This document shows, in pieces, positions 2,475 to 35,508 of a DNA stretch of 35,508 nucleotides (positions within the stretch are counted from its first letter, which is position 1; each line of letters starts with the position of its first letter). This DNA is from a virus. The notes beneath the pieces were generated by a model. That model saw nothing but the letters and a program-made list of their open reading frames with translations, was not told where the DNA came from and did no database searches. A program made the translations under genes and the position numbers. The stretch spans positions 1 to 35,508 of the IMG/VR virus record IMGVR_UViG_3300036985_000928; one strand, given 5' to 3'.

Positions 2475-3818
2475 ATGCCGACCATCAATCAACTCGCAGG
2501 CCTTAGCCAAGTTTCCGGCGGAGACCAACTCCCGATCTACGTTCCCAACAATGGCGACGCCCGTAAGGTTTCGGTTAACCAGCTCCTGCAATACTTTCAG
2601 CAGACCTTCGCAGCGCCTACCGTCGCCACCAACCTATACACCCCAGGCACCGGCTTCAACATCACCGTGCCAACGCCCACCAGTGAACAGCAGTGGATGC
2701 TGCTGCAACCCGCCTCGGCCTTGGCCAGCGGCACAATCACGCTTCCATTGAACACCGGCGTGCCAGACGGAACGCAAATCCTGATTACCACGACGCAGCT
2801 AATCCAATCCTTCACCTTGGCGCTCAATGGTGCAGCCGCAGGCTTTGGCTTTCCTTCCTCACTCGAAGAAGGCGCAGGTATTACGGTGCGTTTCTATCAG
2901 GCCACAAACTCTTGGTACAACATCAGCGCAGAATTATCGGCCGCCGTACTTCCCAGCCTTACAGTTACCCCAGGCCTGACTACGTTGCAAGGCCTGGTCG
3001 TTGGCCGTGGCTCAGGCGTCAACACATCCAACGTGGTGATGGGCGATGGATTGACAGCCAACACGACCGGCACCAATAACGTGGCCATCAACAATTCGGC
3101 CTTGCTGGTCAATACGACCGGCTTAAAAAACATTGCCATCGGAACCAACACCCTCAAGGCAAACATTGACGGCTTTTCCAATGTCGCCATCGGTTTTGAT
3201 TCGCAGCAAGCCCGCACGACGGCACGTCAAAACGTCAGCATTGGCGACAGCACTTTGCGCCTCAACGTCAGTGGCCTATTCAATACGGCAATCGGCGGCT
3301 CGGCACTGGCCACCACCACCGGAAACACAAACACTTGCATCGGCTACCTATCCGGCTTTGAAATCACGACGGGCTCTAACAACGTAATTCTTGGCAACTT
3401 TGACGGCTATACCGCAGGCGTGCTTGACGTTCGTACCGCCACGACCGGCTATGTAGTTCTTAGCAACGGTAACGGCGACGTAGCCGCTTACTGGAATGGG
3501 GCAGATGCTACATTCAGCGGTAGCCTCACATTACCTGGAACAATCGCAACCAGTGCAGTAGCGGCTACCGTTCCAAGCGGAAGCACAATCACTCCTTTAA
3601 AAGCTATTGCTTTTATCAGTGGAACCACTACAGTTAACACTATCTCCGTCCCAAGCAACATGCTTTTGACTGGTGGTTCCATCACCCTGATCCCCACAGG
3701 TGCATTTACCTGGACAACCGCAGGCAACATCGCATTGGCCGGGACATCTGTGGTCAACAAAGCCCTAATCATGACCTACGACTACGGCACCGGCAAGTGG
3801 TATCCAAGTTACGTCTAA
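2475..3818 (+). CDS. Tail fibre / adhesin-like virion protein with YadA-head-type repeats
   Basis: 447 aa from ATG 2475, 13 nt after the gp4-like stop with AGGAG upstream. The N-terminal ~45 residues (INQLAGLSQVSGGDQLPIY) look like a virion-attachment segment of the kind seen in phage fibres. Residues ~70-150 are a beta-rich segment. Residues 201-311 contain seven copies of a 19-22-residue unit with core N-x-A-I-G-x-x-x-L, the left-handed beta-roll repeat of trimeric autotransporter heads (YadA/Hep_Hag type). A beta-rich C-terminal region follows. P22 has no gene between gp4 and gp10, so this is an inserted accessory fibre, probably trimeric and involved in host contact (inference). Confidence 0.8.
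   Translation: MPTINQLAGLSQVSGGDQLPIYVPNNGDARKVSVNQLLQYFQQTFAAPTVATNLYTPGTGFNITVPTPTSEQQWMLLQPASALASGTITLPLNTGVPDGTQILITTTQLIQSFTLALNGAAAGFGFPSSLEEGAGITVRFYQATNSWYNISAELSAAVLPSLTVTPGLTTLQGLVVGRGSGVNTSNVVMGDGLTANTTGTNNVAINNSALLVNTTGLKNIAIGTNTLKANIDGFSNVAIGFDSQQARTTARQNVSIGDSTLRLNVSGLFNTAIGGSALATTTGNTNTCIGYLSGFEITTGSNNVILGNFDGYTAGVLDVRTATTGYVVLSNGNGDVAAYWNGADATFSGSLTLPGTIATSAVAATVPSGSTITPLKAIAFISGTTTVNTISVPSNMLLTGGSITLIPTGAFTWTTAGNIALAGTSVVNKALIMTYDYGTGKWYPSYV
3075..3407 (+). repeat. Coding repeat: seven NxAIGxxxL beta-roll units
   Basis: Within the fibre gene the units NNVAINNSAL, KNIAIGTNTL, SNVAIGFDSQ, QNVSIGDSTL, FNTAIGGSAL, TNTCIGYLSG and NNVILGNFDG recur every 18-22 residues. The DNA copies have diverged, so this is an old protein repeat rather than a recent tandem duplication. 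Confidence 0.85.
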
Positions 3819-6751: not shown

Positions 6752-7087
6752 GTGACCGTTACCGTCAAAGTCTTAATCCCCGCCAAGCAGGCCGAGGCCA
6801 CCAATACCGTGCAGTACACCGCCGTGAACTGCAAAACCATCATTGATAAATTCACCGTCACCAACACCAGTGCGGGCAATGTCACATTCAGCGCCAACCT
6901 GGTCACCGGCGGCGGCAGCGTAGCCACCAGCAACCTGATAATCGATACCCGCAGCATTTCGCCAGACGAGTGCTATACCACACCTGAATTAGTCGGGCAG
7001 GCTTTAGAAGCAGGAGGGGTTATATCAACAATTGCAAGCTCTGCTGGTGCTTTAACAATCAGAGCTTCAGGACGAGAAATAACTTAA
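6752..7087 (+). CDS. Small putative structural protein
   Basis: 111 aa with a GTG start at 6752, preceded by AGGAG 7 nt upstream. The pattern is beta-rich: KVLIPAKQAEA, DKFTVTNTSAGNVTFSANLV, IDTRSISPDECYTTPELVGQ, and ALTIRASGREIT. I recall many short phage proteins with this shape between tail genes; they are usually annotated as virion or hypothetical proteins. The function is not known. A single-domain beta sandwich decorating the tail or head would fit (inference). The composition of its last third is more AT-rich than its first part. Confidence 0.75.
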   Translation: MTVTVKVLIPAKQAEATNTVQYTAVNCKTIIDKFTVTNTSAGNVTFSANLVTGGGSVATSNLIIDTRSISPDECYTTPELVGQALEAGGVISTIASSAGALTIRASGREIT

Positions 7088-16648: not shown

Positions 16649-17056
16649 ATGCTACTTGACTCAATCCTTGGCATCGGCAACAAGCTGATCGACAAACTCA
16701 TTCCAGACCCAGAGGCCAAAGCCAAAGCCCAGATGGACTTGGCCAAGATGGCCCAAGACGGCGAGCTGGCCAAGATGGCCAACGACACCAAGCTCTACGA
16801 GGTCGAGCAGACGGCCATCACAGACCGCTGGCAGGCCGACATGGGGTCAGACTCTTGGCTATCAAAGAACATCCGCCCAATGGCTCTTATAGCCATCTTT
16901 GTGGCCTTCTTTTTGTTCACGATGATGTCAGCCTTCGGCTACAACGCGCAAGAATCCTATGTGCAGCTTCTCGGCCAGTGGGGACAGATCATCTTCTTGG
17001 CATATTTTGGTGGCCGCACAGTTGAGAAACTGGCCGACATGAGAAGCAAGAAATGA
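16649..17056 (+). CDS. Holin of the 3TM (GTA-type) family
   Basis: 135 aa. The N-terminal ~65 residues are a charged helix with the family-like pattern LIDKLIPDPEAKAKAQMDLAKMAQDGELAKMA. Two clear membrane segments follow at ~77-95 (PMALIAIFVAFFLFTMMSA) and ~104-121 (YVQLLGQWGQIIFLAYFGG), with W60 and the SWLSKNIRP turn before the first. This matches the holin family described for gene transfer agents and many phages. It overlaps the endolysin start by 4 nt, the usual holin-lysin coupling. Confidence 0.85.
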   Translation: MLLDSILGIGNKLIDKLIPDPEAKAKAQMDLAKMAQDGELAKMANDTKLYEVEQTAITDRWQADMGSDSWLSKNIRPMALIAIFVAFFLFTMMSAFGYNAQESYVQLLGQWGQIIFLAYFGGRTVEKLADMRSKK

Positions 17057-26714: not shown

Positions 26715-26894
26715 ATGAAAACAGAAGAAGCGGTCAAATTTTACGGAGGCAAAAAGCAGCTTGCCGACGTCCTTGGCGTATGGCCCCAAGTGATCTATCA
26801 GTGGGGTGAATACCCACCTTTAGCCAGACAATACGAGCTGGAAGTAAGGACTGAAGGCGCACTAAAGGCAGACCCTAATGACGACCAAAGCTGA
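26715..26894 (+). CDS. P22-Cro-like transcriptional regulator
   Basis: 59 aa, ATG 26715 with AGGTG 9 nt upstream. MKTEEAVKFYGGKKQLADVL, then GVWPQVIYQW, then RQYELEVRTEGAL. P22 Cro, from memory, runs MYKKDVIDHFGTQRAVAKAL, GISDAAVSQW, DAYRLEIVTAGAL, so the helix-turn-helix, its Gln/Trp end and the C-terminal strand are all kept, at nearly the same length (61 aa). It is the first gene of the rightward block and overlaps the primase gene by 17 nt. It should bind the adjacent control region and lower early transcription. No CI-type partner gene is found. Confidence 0.88.
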   Translation: MKTEEAVKFYGGKKQLADVLGVWPQVIYQWGEYPPLARQYELEVRTEGALKADPNDDQS

Positions 26895-28767
26895 GGCAGC
26901 ACTAACCTATGCCTCATGGGGCTGGCACATCATCCCAGTGGTGCCAAACGGCAAAGTCCCGGCCACTCAGCACGGCGTAAAAGACGCCACGACAGACGCC
27001 GAGCAAATCACCCGCTGGTGGACGCAGAACCCAGACTTCAATATCGGCATTGCCGCAGGCGAGCGTTCAGGCATCATCGTCTTTGACATTGACCCGCGCA
27101 ATGGCGGCGACAACTCATGGGCAGTCTGGACTGAAAATCACGGGAAAGTGCCAGACGGTGCAATGCAAATGACCGCAGGCGGCGGCTTCCATCACATCGC
27201 CGACTACACCCCAGAAATCAGGTCTTGCAAGCTCGCCGAAGGCGTTGACCTGCTGGCCGATGGCCGTTACTTTGTGGCATTCCCCAGCACCATCGAAGGC
27301 CGAAGCTACGAGTGGGAAGCCTCCAGTGATCCATTCGACGGCGTAGCGCCATTCAAAGTGCCACAGACGTGGATGAATGCGTACAGCGCAATGCGCAAGC
27401 CAGCAGAACGCCAGCAGGCGACTACCGGCGGCGGACTCATTCAAGGCAGCCGAAATAATGGCCTGACAGCCTTGGGCGGAGCAATGCGGCGCTACGGCAT
27501 GACAGAGGCCGAAATCATGGCCGCACTGTCCATTGCCAACGAGACCCGTTGCGAAATCCCTTTGCCATCTTCCGAGCTGGCTCAGATCGTCAAAAGCGTG
27601 GCCAGGTACGAACCAGACAGCGACTTGGCAGCATCCACAAGCGTTGGCTCAGAGGCCGCAGATTTTATTCTTGCAGCAGCTCAGGCAGAGACCCAAGAAT
27701 ACTTTTTCACCAGGGCAACGTCCTACCTTGGGCAGCCCGCACCCCTCAAGTGGATTGTCAAAAACTGGGTGCCCGACCTTGGTGTGACCATGATCTACGG
27801 CGAATCAGGCGGCGGAAAAACCTTCTTAGCTCTCGACATTGCATGTCACATTGCCGCAGGCCTGGACTGGCATGGCCACCGCACCAAGAAGGGAATTTCG
27901 GTCTACATGGCAGGCGAAGGTAACTATGGTATCCGCCAGCGCGTTGCATCCTGGTGCAAGGCTCACAACATCGACCGGCTGGACAACCTCCTAATCTCCA
28001 ACAAGGCGATCGACATGGACAGCCCGGCAGCATCGGCACAGATCATCAAAGCCGTGCGCGAGCTGACCACCGAGGAAGCAGTGCAGATCACCATCGACAC
28101 CGTGAATAATCATATGTCAGGCAATGAGAACGACGCCAAGGACACCCGCAACATGCTCAACGCAGTTCAGATCGTTGGCCGCGCTCTTAATTCCGGCATG
28201 GTGCTTGTCCATCACACCGGCAACGCAATTGAAGCTAAGAACCGCGCCCGTGGCTCCAGCGCATGGAAAGCCTCGATGGACTCCCAAATCTTGGTATCCA
28301 AGAAAGATGGCTTGATTGAAGTCGTCTGCACCAAGATGAAAGACACCGAAGAGCCCAAACCGTTCTTTGGCAGGCTTGAATCGGTCGAGCTAGGATGGTT
28401 CGATGAAGATGGAGAATCAATTAAAGGTGCAGTCTTTCAGATTGAAACCGATGTGCCTGAACCGAAATTAAAAAAGGAATCTGAAAATTCTAAAGACATT
28501 CGGAAATTTACAAACGCCTGGTGGGCGTCTGGCGCTGAAAATAATGATGGAAGTCCATTTCTTTCAAGAAGCGCATTAATTGAATACCTTATTAGTAGCG
28601 AAGGATTATCCGAGGCAACCGCAAAAACATATGCGCAAGCAAGCAAACAGGGGAGATTAATTTATAACCTTTTGAATGCTGAAATTATTAAAGCGCATAT
28701 GTATGGATGGATTGTTTCAGACAACGTTACAGCAAGCTCAATGATGTTAAGTAGGTCGCAAAAGTGA
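26878..28767 (+). CDS. Primase-polymerase / RepA-type helicase fusion
   Basis: 629 aa. Residues ~5-165 are a Prim-Pol (AEP) domain: GWHIIPVVPNGKVPA, then VFDIDPRNGG with catalytic D70 and D72, then GGGFHHIAD with H105/H106. Residues ~185-245 are a PriCT helical module (RNNGLTALGGAMRRYGMTEA). Residues ~290-500 are a RepA/KaiC-like AAA_25 ATPase with Walker A GESGGGKT (308-315) and the MAGEGNYGIRQR strand. The last ~110 residues are a lower-GC helical extension (24/60 G+C at 28561-28620 against 38/60 at 28021-28080). It probably primes and unwinds at the phage origin. The GGGACA repeat field directly downstream is a possible binding site. Confidence 0.93.
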   Translation: MTTKAEAALTYASWGWHIIPVVPNGKVPATQHGVKDATTDAEQITRWWTQNPDFNIGIAAGERSGIIVFDIDPRNGGDNSWAVWTENHGKVPDGAMQMTAGGGFHHIADYTPEIRSCKLAEGVDLLADGRYFVAFPSTIEGRSYEWEASSDPFDGVAPFKVPQTWMNAYSAMRKPAERQQATTGGGLIQGSRNNGLTALGGAMRRYGMTEAEIMAALSIANETRCEIPLPSSELAQIVKSVARYEPDSDLAASTSVGSEAADFILAAAQAETQEYFFTRATSYLGQPAPLKWIVKNWVPDLGVTMIYGESGGGKTFLALDIACHIAAGLDWHGHRTKKGISVYMAGEGNYGIRQRVASWCKAHNIDRLDNLLISNKAIDMDSPAASAQIIKAVRELTTEEAVQITIDTVNNHMSGNENDAKDTRNMLNAVQIVGRALNSGMVLVHHTGNAIEAKNRARGSSAWKASMDSQILVSKKDGLIEVVCTKMKDTEEPKPFFGRLESVELGWFDEDGESIKGAVFQIETDVPEPKLKKESENSKDIRKFTNAWWASGAENNDGSPFLSRSALIEYLISSEGLSEATAKTYAQASKQGRLIYNLLNAEIIKAHMYGWIVSDNVTASSMMLSRSQK

Positions 28768-28769
28768 CT

Positions 28770-28879
28770 GGGACAATTGGGACAAAGACGGGACAACTGG
28801 GACTTTTGTCCCAGCGACAAAGACGAGAAAGCCTGGGACAAATGGGACACACTCCTTTAGGAGTGTCCCACTGTCCCAG
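28770..28879. repeat. Iteron-like GGGAC repeat field with nested hairpins; candidate replication origin
   Basis: GGGAC occurs on the + strand at 28770, 28779, 28790, 28799, 28835 and 28844 (five read GGGACA), and inverted at 28808, 28865 and 28873. Spacing within groups is 9-11 nt. Hairpin 1 is CTGGGAC/GTCCCAG (28797-28814) with loop TTTT. Hairpin 2 joins CTGGGACA (28833-28840) to TGTCCCAG (28872-28879) and encloses a second 11-bp stem (28843-28870) with loop TTTA. A T-run at 28892-28898 follows 12 nt later. It fills the gap after the prim-pol/helicase gene. Confidence 0.75.
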
Positions 28880-28917
28880 CAACGATGTGCGTTTTTTTGA
28901 CCTAGAAGGAGAAGCCT

Positions 28918-29298
28918 GTGGATAAGTGCTTGAAGTGTGAATCGGAACACCTTAAGATTGGAATTACGAACATTGCATCCGGTGCAACTGTTTATCCTTT
29001 GTATTGCGCAGACTGCGGTGAAGTGTTTGCAAAATATATAAAGAAAAAAATCGCGCAAGAATACGCGATGAAAAATGGGCCTCTTGAATATGTAAAAACA
29101 AGAACCGCAAAATATATTGAAAAAAAACAAATTGAAATTAACTGTGAAGTGTGTGATGCGAATGAAGGTGAGTTACATCACTGGGCACCGCAGTATTTAT
29201 TCCAAGATGCAGACAGTTGGCCCAAGTCTTACCTTTGCCGCGTTTGCCACAGAAAATGGCATGATCTTGTTACACCCAACATGAGCAAAAAAAAATGA
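28918..29298 (+). CDS. HNH-like protein with N-terminal zinc ribbon
   Basis: 126 aa from GTG 28918, with GAAGGAG 7 nt upstream. Residues 4-33 hold CLKC and CADC (a zinc ribbon). The C-terminal half has CEVC (76-79), LHHWAPQ with H87/H88, and CRVCHRKWHD with C107, C110, H111 and H115. This is a treble-clef HNH layout of the 'C..C ... HHW.P ... C..CH..WH' type, which I recall in Burkholderiales phages. Nuclease activity is likely but not proven; it could be a homing enzyme or a packaging-linked nicking protein. The gene is AT-rich, like the end of the adjacent primase gene. Confidence 0.8.
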   Translation: MDKCLKCESEHLKIGITNIASGATVYPLYCADCGEVFAKYIKKKIAQEYAMKNGPLEYVKTRTAKYIEKKQIEINCEVCDANEGELHHWAPQYLFQDADSWPKSYLCRVCHRKWHDLVTPNMSKKK

Positions 29299-29641: not shown

Positions 29642-30862
29642 ATGTCAATGATTCAACACAATCCCGCCGACAAGGTTGAGCGCTGGGACATTACCCGCCT
29701 GGTGCCTTACGCACGCAACAGCCGCACGCACAGCGACGAGCAAATCGGCCAGATTGCGGCCTCGATCAAAGAATGGGGCTGGACTACTCCGGTGCTCGTT
29801 GACGAGGCTGGAAGCATCATTGCTGGCCATGGCAGGACGCTTGCAGCCCAGCGCCTCAAGATGACCGAGGTTCCCGTGATGGTGGCCACAGGCTGGAGCG
29901 ATGCCAAGAAGCGGGCCTACATCATTGCGGACAACAAGCTGGCGCTTAATGGTGGCTGGGATGAGCAGATGCTGGCGCTTGAGCTGGGTGAGATTGGTGA
30001 GCTGGGGTTTGACCTTGACCTGACTGGCTTCACAGCCGATGAGATTGCAGCTCTGACTCCTGAGCAGATCGAGCCTGGCCTGACCGATGAGGATGAAGTG
30101 CCTGAGCTGCCTGAGCAACCAGTCACTGTGCTTGGCGATGTTTGGGTTCTTGGTAAGCACCGGCTCATGTGCGGTGACTCGACCAGCATCGATGCGGTGG
30201 ATAAGCTCATGGATGGCCAGAAGGCTGACATGGTGTTCACCGATCCGCCTTACGGAGTTGACTACAAAGGCATTAAGAACGATGACCGAGGTGGGCTTGA
30301 AGAATTATTGCGCGGCGCTTTCGGCAACTTTCTTGCTGTATCAAAGTCTGGTGCGTCTATTTACGTGTTTCATTCAGACCGCTGCGCGGACATATTCCAC
30401 AAAGTGTTTCGCGAGTTTTTCCACTTTAGCTCGATGATTATTTGGGCGAAGAACTCGCTCACGCTGTCGCAGACTGACTATCAAAGTCAGCACGAACCTT
30501 GCTTATACGGCTGGATGGACAACGGCACCCATTCTTGGCACTCGGATCGGAAACAAACATCGGTATGGCGGTTCGACAAAGAGCGCGTGGACGGTCACAC
30601 GACTCCGAAACCGGTAGAGCTAGTGGCGAAGGCGATCAGCAACAGCAGCAAAGGCGGCGACACCATTTCCGACCTGTTCGGTGGGTCTGGCTCCACGCTA
30701 ATCGCTTGCGAAAAGACCGGGCGGGAGTCTCGCCTAATGGAGCTAGACCCGAAGTATTGCGACGTCATAGTCAAGCGCTGGCAAGACTTCACAGGCAAAA
30801 TCGCAGTTCACGCAGAAACCGGAAAACCTTTCGCGGAGGTTCAAAATGACAGCAAAACTTGA
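29642..30862 (+). CDS. ParB-like domain fused to DNA N6-adenine/N4-cytosine methyltransferase
   Basis: 406 aa. Residues ~12-120 are a ParB/Srx-type domain with LVPYARNSRTHSDEQIGQIA and IIAGHGRTLAA (GHGR at 62-65). Residues ~165-390 are an N6_N4 methyltransferase with motif IV DPPY (201-204) and, later in the chain, motif I FGGSGST (346-352), the order of beta-class enzymes. DPPY favours adenine-N6. No matching restriction enzyme is present, so it probably protects phage DNA or marks sites. It sits next to the terminase genes, a common location for such fusions, and overlaps the small terminase gene by 17 nt. Confidence 0.93.
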   Translation: MSMIQHNPADKVERWDITRLVPYARNSRTHSDEQIGQIAASIKEWGWTTPVLVDEAGSIIAGHGRTLAAQRLKMTEVPVMVATGWSDAKKRAYIIADNKLALNGGWDEQMLALELGEIGELGFDLDLTGFTADEIAALTPEQIEPGLTDEDEVPELPEQPVTVLGDVWVLGKHRLMCGDSTSIDAVDKLMDGQKADMVFTDPPYGVDYKGIKNDDRGGLEELLRGAFGNFLAVSKSGASIYVFHSDRCADIFHKVFREFFHFSSMIIWAKNSLTLSQTDYQSQHEPCLYGWMDNGTHSWHSDRKQTSVWRFDKERVDGHTTPKPVELVAKAISNSSKGGDTISDLFGGSGSTLIACEKTGRESRLMELDPKYCDVIVKRWQDFTGKIAVHAETGKPFAEVQNDSKT

Positions 30863-34669: not shown

Positions 34670-35508
34670 ATGATGAATCAAAAGGTAGAAGCAAGCGATA
34701 ACGACGACGACGACGTGATGGTCGAGGACCAAATCCAAGTTGAGGACGCGCCCAGCGCAGACTCAGCCGATGAATCAGACGAAAGCGAAACCGACGAAGT
34801 ATTCGTGAGCATTGGTGAGGAAGCGCCACCTCCCGAGGAAACAACTCAAGCCCCCGAATGGGTACGCGAGTTGCGTAAGACAAACCGAGAACTGCAACGC
34901 CAGAACCGCGAACTCCAAGGCAAGCTGCAAACCACCACGACTGAGAACAAGCCGGTCGCGCTGGGCAAGAAGCCAAGCCTAGAAGATCACGACTACGACG
35001 CGGAGAAGTTTGAGGAAGCACTAACGACATGGTTCGAGCGCAAGCGACAAGCCGATGACGTTAACGCCAAGCACGAAGCTGAAGTTATGAATCAGCAAAA
35101 GGCCTGGCAGTCCAAACTGGATGGCTACGGCAAAGCGAAAGCAGAGCTAAAGGTCAAAGATTTTGAAGACGCCGAGGCAGTAGCCCAGGAGTTATTCAGC
35201 GTCACCCAGCAAGGCGTGGTGCTCCAAGGCGCAGATAATCCTGCGCTGGTGATTTACGCACTTGGCAAGAACCCCAAGAAGGCCAAAGAGTTGTCCGAAA
35301 TCAAAGACCCCGTAAAGTTTGCCTTTGCGGTAGCAAAACTGGAGAAAGAATTGAAAGTTACCAACCGCAAGGCAGCACCACCACCCGAGCGAATCGTGTC
35401 AGGAACTGGCCGAGTATCTGGGGCGGTGGACTCAACCCTCGAACGGCTGCGAGAAGAAGCGGCTCGTACTGGCAACATGACGAAAGTCGTGCAGTACAAG
35501 GCGCAGAA
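34670..35508 (+). CDS. Scaffolding protein (gp8 position), N-terminal part; gene continues at base 1
   Basis: Two adjacent ATGs (34670, 34673) follow CAGGG. The frame is open to the end of the window and continues across the junction to TGA at 146, giving 285 aa. The N-terminal ~65 residues are very acidic (a DNDDDD stretch, many Glu/Asp). Residues ~70-95 are a coiled coil (VRELRKTNRELQRQNRELQG), and a Lys/Glu helical region follows. This is typical of P22-like and other phage scaffolds, which line the prohead and leave before DNA enters. The position between portal and coat matches P22 gene 8. No protease motif is seen. Similarity is structural and positional, not by clear sequence match. 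Confidence 0.85.
   Translation, partial: MMNQKVEASDNDDDDVMVEDQIQVEDAPSADSADESDESETDEVFVSIGEEAPPPEETTQAPEWVRELRKTNRELQRQNRELQGKLQTTTTENKPVALGKKPSLEDHDYDAEKFEEALTTWFERKRQADDVNAKHEAEVMNQQKAWQSKLDGYGKAKAELKVKDFEDAEAVAQELFSVTQQGVVLQGADNPALVIYALGKNPKKAKELSEIKDPVKFAFAVAKLEKELKVTNRKAAPPPERIVSGTGRVSGAVDSTLERLREEAARTGNMTKVVQYKAQ
35382..35508. repeat. Terminal direct repeat, right copy (assembly overlap)
   Basis: Identical to bases 1-127. One copy should be removed to give the 35,381-bp circular map. Both copies lie in the C-terminal coding part of the scaffold gene. Confidence 0.95.

Follow-up and report, generated by a model that had tools for sequence, protein, structure and literature searches.

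A probable iteron-type replication origin directly downstream of a prim-pol/helicase gene in a phage genome, with a recognition word that varies among relatives

The stretch of viral DNA analysed here, which at its full length of 35,508 nt is referred to throughout as the window, contains a field of short repeats of the word GGGAC directly after a gene for a prim-pol/RSF1010-RepA-type helicase. This array is very probably the cis-acting replication origin of the ~35.4-kb circular phage genome, its iterons being read by the C-terminal domain of the initiator itself. The central point, reached by comparing sequences, is that among relatives the array keeps its layout while the word and the C-terminus of the putative reader are exchanged together.

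A direct terminal repeat of 127 nt (positions 1-127 of the window equal 35382-35508) implies that the genome is probably complete and circular (or circularly permuted), with a length of about 35.4 kb. The features on which the argument depends are as follows.

26715..26894, + strand: P22_Cro-like regulator, upstream of the initiator gene (Pfam P22_Cro, E 5e-18)
26878..28767, + strand: initiator gene, 629 aa, stop at 28767 (Pfam, profile search, AlphaFold2)
28483..28764, + strand: C-terminal domain of the initiator, aa ~536-628, proposed iteron reader (identity tracks the word; predicted winged helix)
28768..28814, + strand: left iteron cluster, with direct copies at 28770, 28779, 28790 and 28799 and an inverted copy at 28808 (same arrangement in most close relatives)
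28797..28814, no strand assigned: small perfect hairpin CTGGGAC-TTTT-GTCCCAG, 7 bp (kept in most relatives, lost in L017)
28816..28827, + strand: spacer GACAAAGACGAG, counterpart of the relatives' GACAAGGCGAG / GGGGCAAAGGC (comparison with relatives)
28833..28879, no strand assigned: nested hairpin with iterons at 28835 and 28844 (direct) and at 28865 and 28873 (inverted) (folding, covariation)
28881..28890, + strand: right flank AACGATGTGC, kept in close relatives and GATGCGGGC-like in more distant ones

The repeat array and its hairpins

The array region (28768-28879) lies directly after the initiator gene, in a gap of 150 nt (28768-28917). An initial annotation of this DNA had described six direct and three inverted GGGAC copies with 9-11-nt steps in the gap, and all of these were located at that spacing; its placing of the array after a 629-aa replication gene also stands, the end of that gene being correctly given, while the feature itself begins 2 nt earlier than the interval 28770-28879 then assigned to it. 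In the left half the direct copies follow one another at steps of 9, 11 and 9 nt, and in the right half two direct copies (9 nt apart) and two inverted ones are arranged symmetrically about a TTTA apex at 28856-28859. This is the pattern by which iteron origins are recognised, namely short phased copies about a helical turn apart and adjoining the initiator gene.

Nine copies of GGGAC fall within 113 nt, as against at most two in any other 113-nt stretch of the window, the word being depleted outside the array (23 copies in the whole window, vs. ~52 expected from dinucleotide shuffling); when the 150-nt gap was shuffled 2,000 times with its dinucleotides preserved, there were at most four copies of GGGAC and at most eight of any 5-mer. 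However, other 5-mers do reach nine per 113 nt elsewhere in the window (poly-A, and TGGCC in a coding repeat), so that copy count alone is not decisive and it is conservation that decides. The cluster of TGGCC/GGCCA in question, at 16711-16800, lies in coding sequence for what is apparently a repetitive peptide, that is, an ordinary coding repeat. The minimum of GC skew falls at 28,290 in the raw curve and at 6,984 in the circular (detrended) one, and the array site is not singled out.

Both of the hairpins originally proposed, a perfect one of 7 bp and a larger nested one, are present. The nested hairpin comprises outer arms of 8 bp (28833-28840/28872-28879), inner arms also of 8 bp (28843-28850/28863-28870), a 2-nt AC bulge (28851-28852) and the apex TCC-TTTA-GGA (28853-28862). 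Treated as single-stranded DNA, the gap folds with -27.8 kcal/mol (z = -3.9), making it more stable than all of 200 shuffles. Across eight close relatives 97% of the cells in the hairpin comparison pair, with eight two-sided compensatory changes; none of 500 shuffles scored as high, and slid registers fail. The iterons do not include the pairs at columns 19-32 and 22-31, so that pairing itself is selected, beyond what the symmetry of the binding sites requires. Whatever the word, the apex is mostly CTTTAG, CTATAG or CTTAAG, and many motif classes have a terminal hairpin with unequal arms, the 5′ one often exceeding the 3′ one by 1-3 nt (in the window, at 28851-28852), commonly through a micro-repeat such as ACAC, TACTAC or TCCTCC. 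The remark in the initial annotation that hairpins can serve prim-pol initiation proves not to be specific: the same hairpin follows homologues annotated as TOPRIM-type or simply as DNA primase (L033-L035), implying that it is not tied to a prim-pol primase, and it is also found after a helicase accompanied by a separately encoded TOPRIM primase.

Directly after the array, at 28918-29298, there is a Cys/His-rich ORF of 126 aa containing HHWAPQYLF...CRVCHRKWHD, HNH-like by eye, for which a Pfam search gave no confident match; in several relatives it is swapped for unrelated genes. Beyond it, the ORF at 29642-30862 encodes an N6/N4 DNA methyltransferase fused to a ParB N-terminal-like domain.

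Exchange of the word and of the initiator's C-terminus

Viral contigs yielded 28 close relatives, and where the gene end is present the gap keeps the array layout, while the next downstream gene, the T-run and the exact copy number vary freely. More widely, loci from viral and bacterial genome collections provided 173 testable gene ends, a locus being counted as array-positive if a 6-mer occurred at least six times, in both orientations, within ~380 nt, and beat control windows from the same contig. By this mechanically applied rule 108 of the 173 carry an array (83 after removing redundancy), and 3.5% of the control windows of the same contigs reach six copies, judged by copy number alone; about a third of the 173 loci are negative, mostly distant homologues together with one sub-clade (L081, L083, L091, L093, L094, L099, L101 and L110). 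A motif caller based only on GNNNC was dropped as being too loose in GC-rich DNA, where 834 of 5,553 control windows passed. The contigs of the 83 are assigned to Proteobacteria, Bacteroidetes, Spirochaetes, Armatimonadota, Synergistales, Clostridiales and others, such host labels being weak because many of the contigs are metagenome bins.

The layout is fixed, consisting of three or four direct copies and one inverted, usually a short spacer, two direct copies, the covarying hairpin and two inverted copies. A spacer-like motif is found at 28 of 48 unique loci, compared to a fraction of 0.16 for random 55-nt stretches; the right-flank pattern is found at only 18 of the 48. The word itself takes many forms (GGGAC, GTAAC, GTACC, GCAAC, GGTAC, GGTTC, GATAC, GTGAC and others), with nearly all copies changing together. 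For instance, L019 and L020 have CGATAC for every GGGAC and L024 has CGTAAC, the spacer (GACAAGGCGAG) and the layout being kept, while among annotated phages Salicola CGphi29 has GGGGACA, Idiomarinaceae 1N2-2 has GGTACA, Rhizobium 16-3 has GTGACA, and Alteromonas PB15 and XX1924 have GGTTCA. Covarying GGGAC copies in relatives had been foreseen, and what is found is stronger than that, in that the word is replaced as a set.

The array travels with the initiator gene while the downstream genes differ. When viral contigs were searched in the reverse sense, using the GGGAC hairpin pattern alone, 27 of the 30 matches adjoined the end of a helicase gene, and the remaining three lie within 260 nt of the upstream end of their contig. 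The gene end usually lies 54-103 nt before the element (farther in L195, L203 and L210); at L211 the helicase gene was confirmed from its ORF, and at L190, L212 and L217 the asymmetric pattern occurs in the opposite orientation, still beside the gene end.

The module also occurs on circular elements, namely pMRAD08 (CGGACA) and a 35-kb Methylobacterium currus plasmid (CGCAAC), these two calls resting on layout because their copy counts do not exceed those of GC-rich controls. Neither has another annotated initiator, which for the circular records pMRAD08 and NZ_CP089300 holds as far as their incomplete gene tables go; carrying the module as lone annotated initiator suits a replicon. Two other plasmids may be mentioned here. 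In Polaromonas plasmid pPNAP03 (L221, ~3100-3200) a RepA-family helicase gene is followed by a lone CTTTAG-apex hairpin (CCACCCCCTTTAGGGGGTGG) with no iteron array, perhaps a degenerate or a different origin, while in Klebsiella plasmid pKp_Goe_795-4 (L220; a circular record of 17 kb with phage genes) a RepA-type helicase gene is followed by eight copies of TGCGGC without an obvious terminal hairpin.

The initiator of the window has, by Pfam, a Prim-Pol domain (aa 8-151), PriCT_1 (187-247) and an AAA_25/RSF1010-RepA-type helicase (271-449), and for a profile built from 25 homologues the sole solved relative is RSF1010 RepA (1g8y, E 2e-6). A Pfam search with its C-terminal 125 residues found no family, and among 49 homologues there were three weak RepA_N matches (best E 0.0026). 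AlphaFold2 predicts this region to be a winged-helix-like domain: the model is compact, with pLDDT 90-97 over most of its length, recurs in the full-length model, and has the topology H-E-H-H-H-E-E-H (H32-46, E55-59, H60-69, H75-81, H90-96, E100-103, E106-109, H112-123). Its structural matches to winged-helix proteins (ArsR/SmtB, MarR, linker histone H1 and the RuvB C-terminus) are generic, at Z ~6-7.3 in the chance-level range, and Foldseek gave no match to the model at E <= 0.001.

To see which part of the protein the word follows, dereplicated pairs of full-length prim-pol homologues with helicase cores 60-85% identical were compared. Between same-word and different-word pairs the difference in identity is 0.36-0.40 over residues 511-615 and 0.03-0.23 elsewhere in the protein; with helicase identity matched, the word follows the C-terminal ~110 residues and no other part. 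Pairs with a C-terminal identity of at least 0.6 almost always share the word (74-94%), while at 0.5-0.6 only 18% do. This correlation includes shared ancestry, and it is natural chimeras, of which there are three independent sets, that carry most weight. L067 and L073 have cores 98-99% identical to that of L119 and C-termini only 45-49% identical; almost all copies have changed from GTAAC to GTACC, while the flanks on either side and the apex GGGTTCTTTAGAACCC are identical. Between L100/L103 and L106 (core 97%) the C-terminal differences are concentrated at residues 605-646 of that protein, within the predicted winged helix, and GTAAC becomes GCAAC at nearly every copy, while L085/L088 and L102 (core 94%) have CGGTAA and CGTATC respectively. 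The original proposal, that the initiator binds iterons adjoining the gene that encodes it, is thus supported by these comparisons, since the array is kept in place, travels with the gene and has a word that covaries with the C-terminus of the presumed reader.

The origin reading and its alternatives

Iteron initiators often act at both origins and autoregulatory or copy-control sites, and the array might in principle be an operator of this kind, to which the initiator binds in order to repress or handcuff, with the true origin elsewhere; its position at the 3′ end of the gene, and the fact that GC skew does not mark the site, would be compatible with this. However, such an operator would lie downstream of the gene and would need neither the dyad nor a conserved, covarying hairpin, while the functional precedents for sites 3′ of rep are origins (PMC6092414, PMC4234260). 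Moreover, the upstream promoter region contains no further GGGAC cluster, making an autoregulatory operator less likely than an origin. Where the initial annotation had offered either of these two roles, it is therefore the origin that is favoured, and the operator is unlikely. If the array acted as a transcription terminator or attenuator for the replication gene, a strong hairpin with a T7 run beyond it (28892-28898 in the window) would be accounted for, and in pRN1 the rep gene is indeed followed by a distinct terminator hairpin (PMC4234260), but such a role would leave unexplained both the 4-6 unpaired direct copies and the switching of the word with the C-terminus. As had been objected from the outset, the T-run is too far away for an intrinsic terminator, the gap of 12 nt past the large hairpin being confirmed, and T6 or longer is found in 8 of 34 close relatives and after 5 of 48 hairpins overall; instead of a GC-rich hairpin with a direct, conserved T-run one sees a hairpin that a terminator scan did not find, and this explanation is very improbable.

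There is likewise only a very slight chance that it is the small Cro-like protein, and not the helicase, that binds the iterons. Many of these phages do have a gene for a small HTH protein immediately upstream, but L012 and L014 have unrelated HTH proteins and yet GGGAC-type arrays, L006 and L020 have alike Cro proteins with GGGAC in one case and CGATAC in the other, and the word follows the helicase C-terminus; the P22_Cro-like protein was rejected as the reader on the grounds that one HTH type gives way to another while the word stays the same. As to the array acting as a structured RNA (a regulatory RNA or RNA primer) instead of as a DNA site, the covarying hairpin and the strong folding might seem to point that way, but a search with the covariance models of Rfam 15 gave no match to the array region, the 9-11-nt phasing suits duplex DNA, and the unpaired direct copies switch word along with the paired ones, something that base pairing would not call for; this possibility is barely credible.

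If the array is indeed the origin, several initiator molecules would bind the iterons cooperatively via their C-terminal winged helices and would place the RepA-type helicase ring on adjacent DNA at the dyad, a step that extrusion or melting of the hairpin would assist, after which the fused primase, or in relatives the TOPRIM primase, would begin synthesis. Given that the word differs between phages, it is proposed that each initiator starts only its own genome. More tentatively, and with rather less than even confidence, these loci may represent a large and apparently undescribed origin-initiator family, carried by phages and prophage-like elements across many bacterial phyla, with a fixed layout and an exchangeable word of 5-6 bases that is switched together with its C-terminal reader, such switching being driven by selection (e.g. 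escape from origin-copying satellites, from origin-directed nucleases or from incompatibility), so that co-infecting phages replicate independently. Selection as the cause is a hypothesis drawn by analogy with the Vibrio PLE. No description of this origin family was found in open-access full-text literature, subscription papers lying outside that search, so that an earlier description is possible.

On this interpretation the replication origin of many uncultured phages and prophage-like elements could be predicted to the base from DNA alone. The relatives also offer over a dozen naturally occurring protein-DNA pairs, in each of which a C-terminal domain is matched with its word, and a recognition code might be derived from them. 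For an initiator to gain a new origin specificity the protein and many sites must change together, and near-identical proteins with a changed C-terminus and a rewritten array make the question of how this happens directly testable.

Comparison with known origins

Origins after the primase gene have reportedly been found in Streptococcus thermophilus phages of the Sfi21 type. Iterons or stem-loops located 3′ of rep have precedents as functional origins (PMC6092414, PMC4234260, PMC7581432), among them the SaPI/PICI origins, which have two sets of element-specific iterons and for which a cloned pri-rep-ori module replicates (PMC6092414, PMC7581432). Like these, the array lies directly 3′ of the initiator gene and has two sets of short iterons, for which the C-terminal domain of the helicase is, here by proposal, the reader. 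However, the SaPI/PICI Rep has an SF3 helicase where here there is an AAA_25, RSF1010-RepA/RecA-like one, and in place of their AT-rich melting region between the iteron sets there is a covarying hairpin with two dyad-paired iterons; the spacer at 28816-28827 has no special A+T content, and the A/T-only part of the array is the 4-nt hairpin apex. In addition, the module is found here in full-size phages, not only in satellites.

Plasmid pRN1 requires a stem-loop downstream of (within 166 bp of) its prim-pol/helicase gene, the product of which has a C-terminal winged helix, and has no iterons; the authors of that work pointed to comparable stem-loops following prim-pol genes of phages (PMC4234260). 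The likeness is in the joining of prim-pol, helicase and C-terminal winged helix (here predicted) in one protein, and in the large stem-loop after the gene (47 nt here, vs. ~100 nt), while the differences are that iterons are here the main feature and that the helicase is AAA_25 rather than SF3. RSF1010 oriV has the same helicase family (1g8y), with iterons and hairpins (ssiA/ssiB) at the origin, but there a separate RepC reads the iterons and RepB′ primes, whereas here the binding domain (as proposed), helicase and primase form one polypeptide. P4 alpha and SCCmec Cch2 are also self-contained initiators that have a DNA-binding domain at the C-terminus and go with short repeats, which for Cch2 are iterons of 5 nt (PMC4234260, PMC7581432), but their helicase is SF3/D5-like, and there is no described switching of the word within a fixed layout. 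In the Vibrio PLE the DNA-binding domain of the initiator RepA and the iterons of its ori co-vary, much as here, and are exchanged as a module; there it is established by experiment that only cognate pairs replicate, and an origin-directed nuclease provides a selective force (PMC8263062). However, that initiator is of the RepA_N type without helicase or primase, its iterons are semi-palindromic and ~30 bp long, and there are only two specificity groups.

The module described here falls outside the SaPI/PICI and pRN1 classes because its helicase is RSF1010-RepA-like, and the best reading of the sequences is that array and initiator would together work like the origins of SaPI/PICI elements and pRN1, except that the helicase belongs to SF4.
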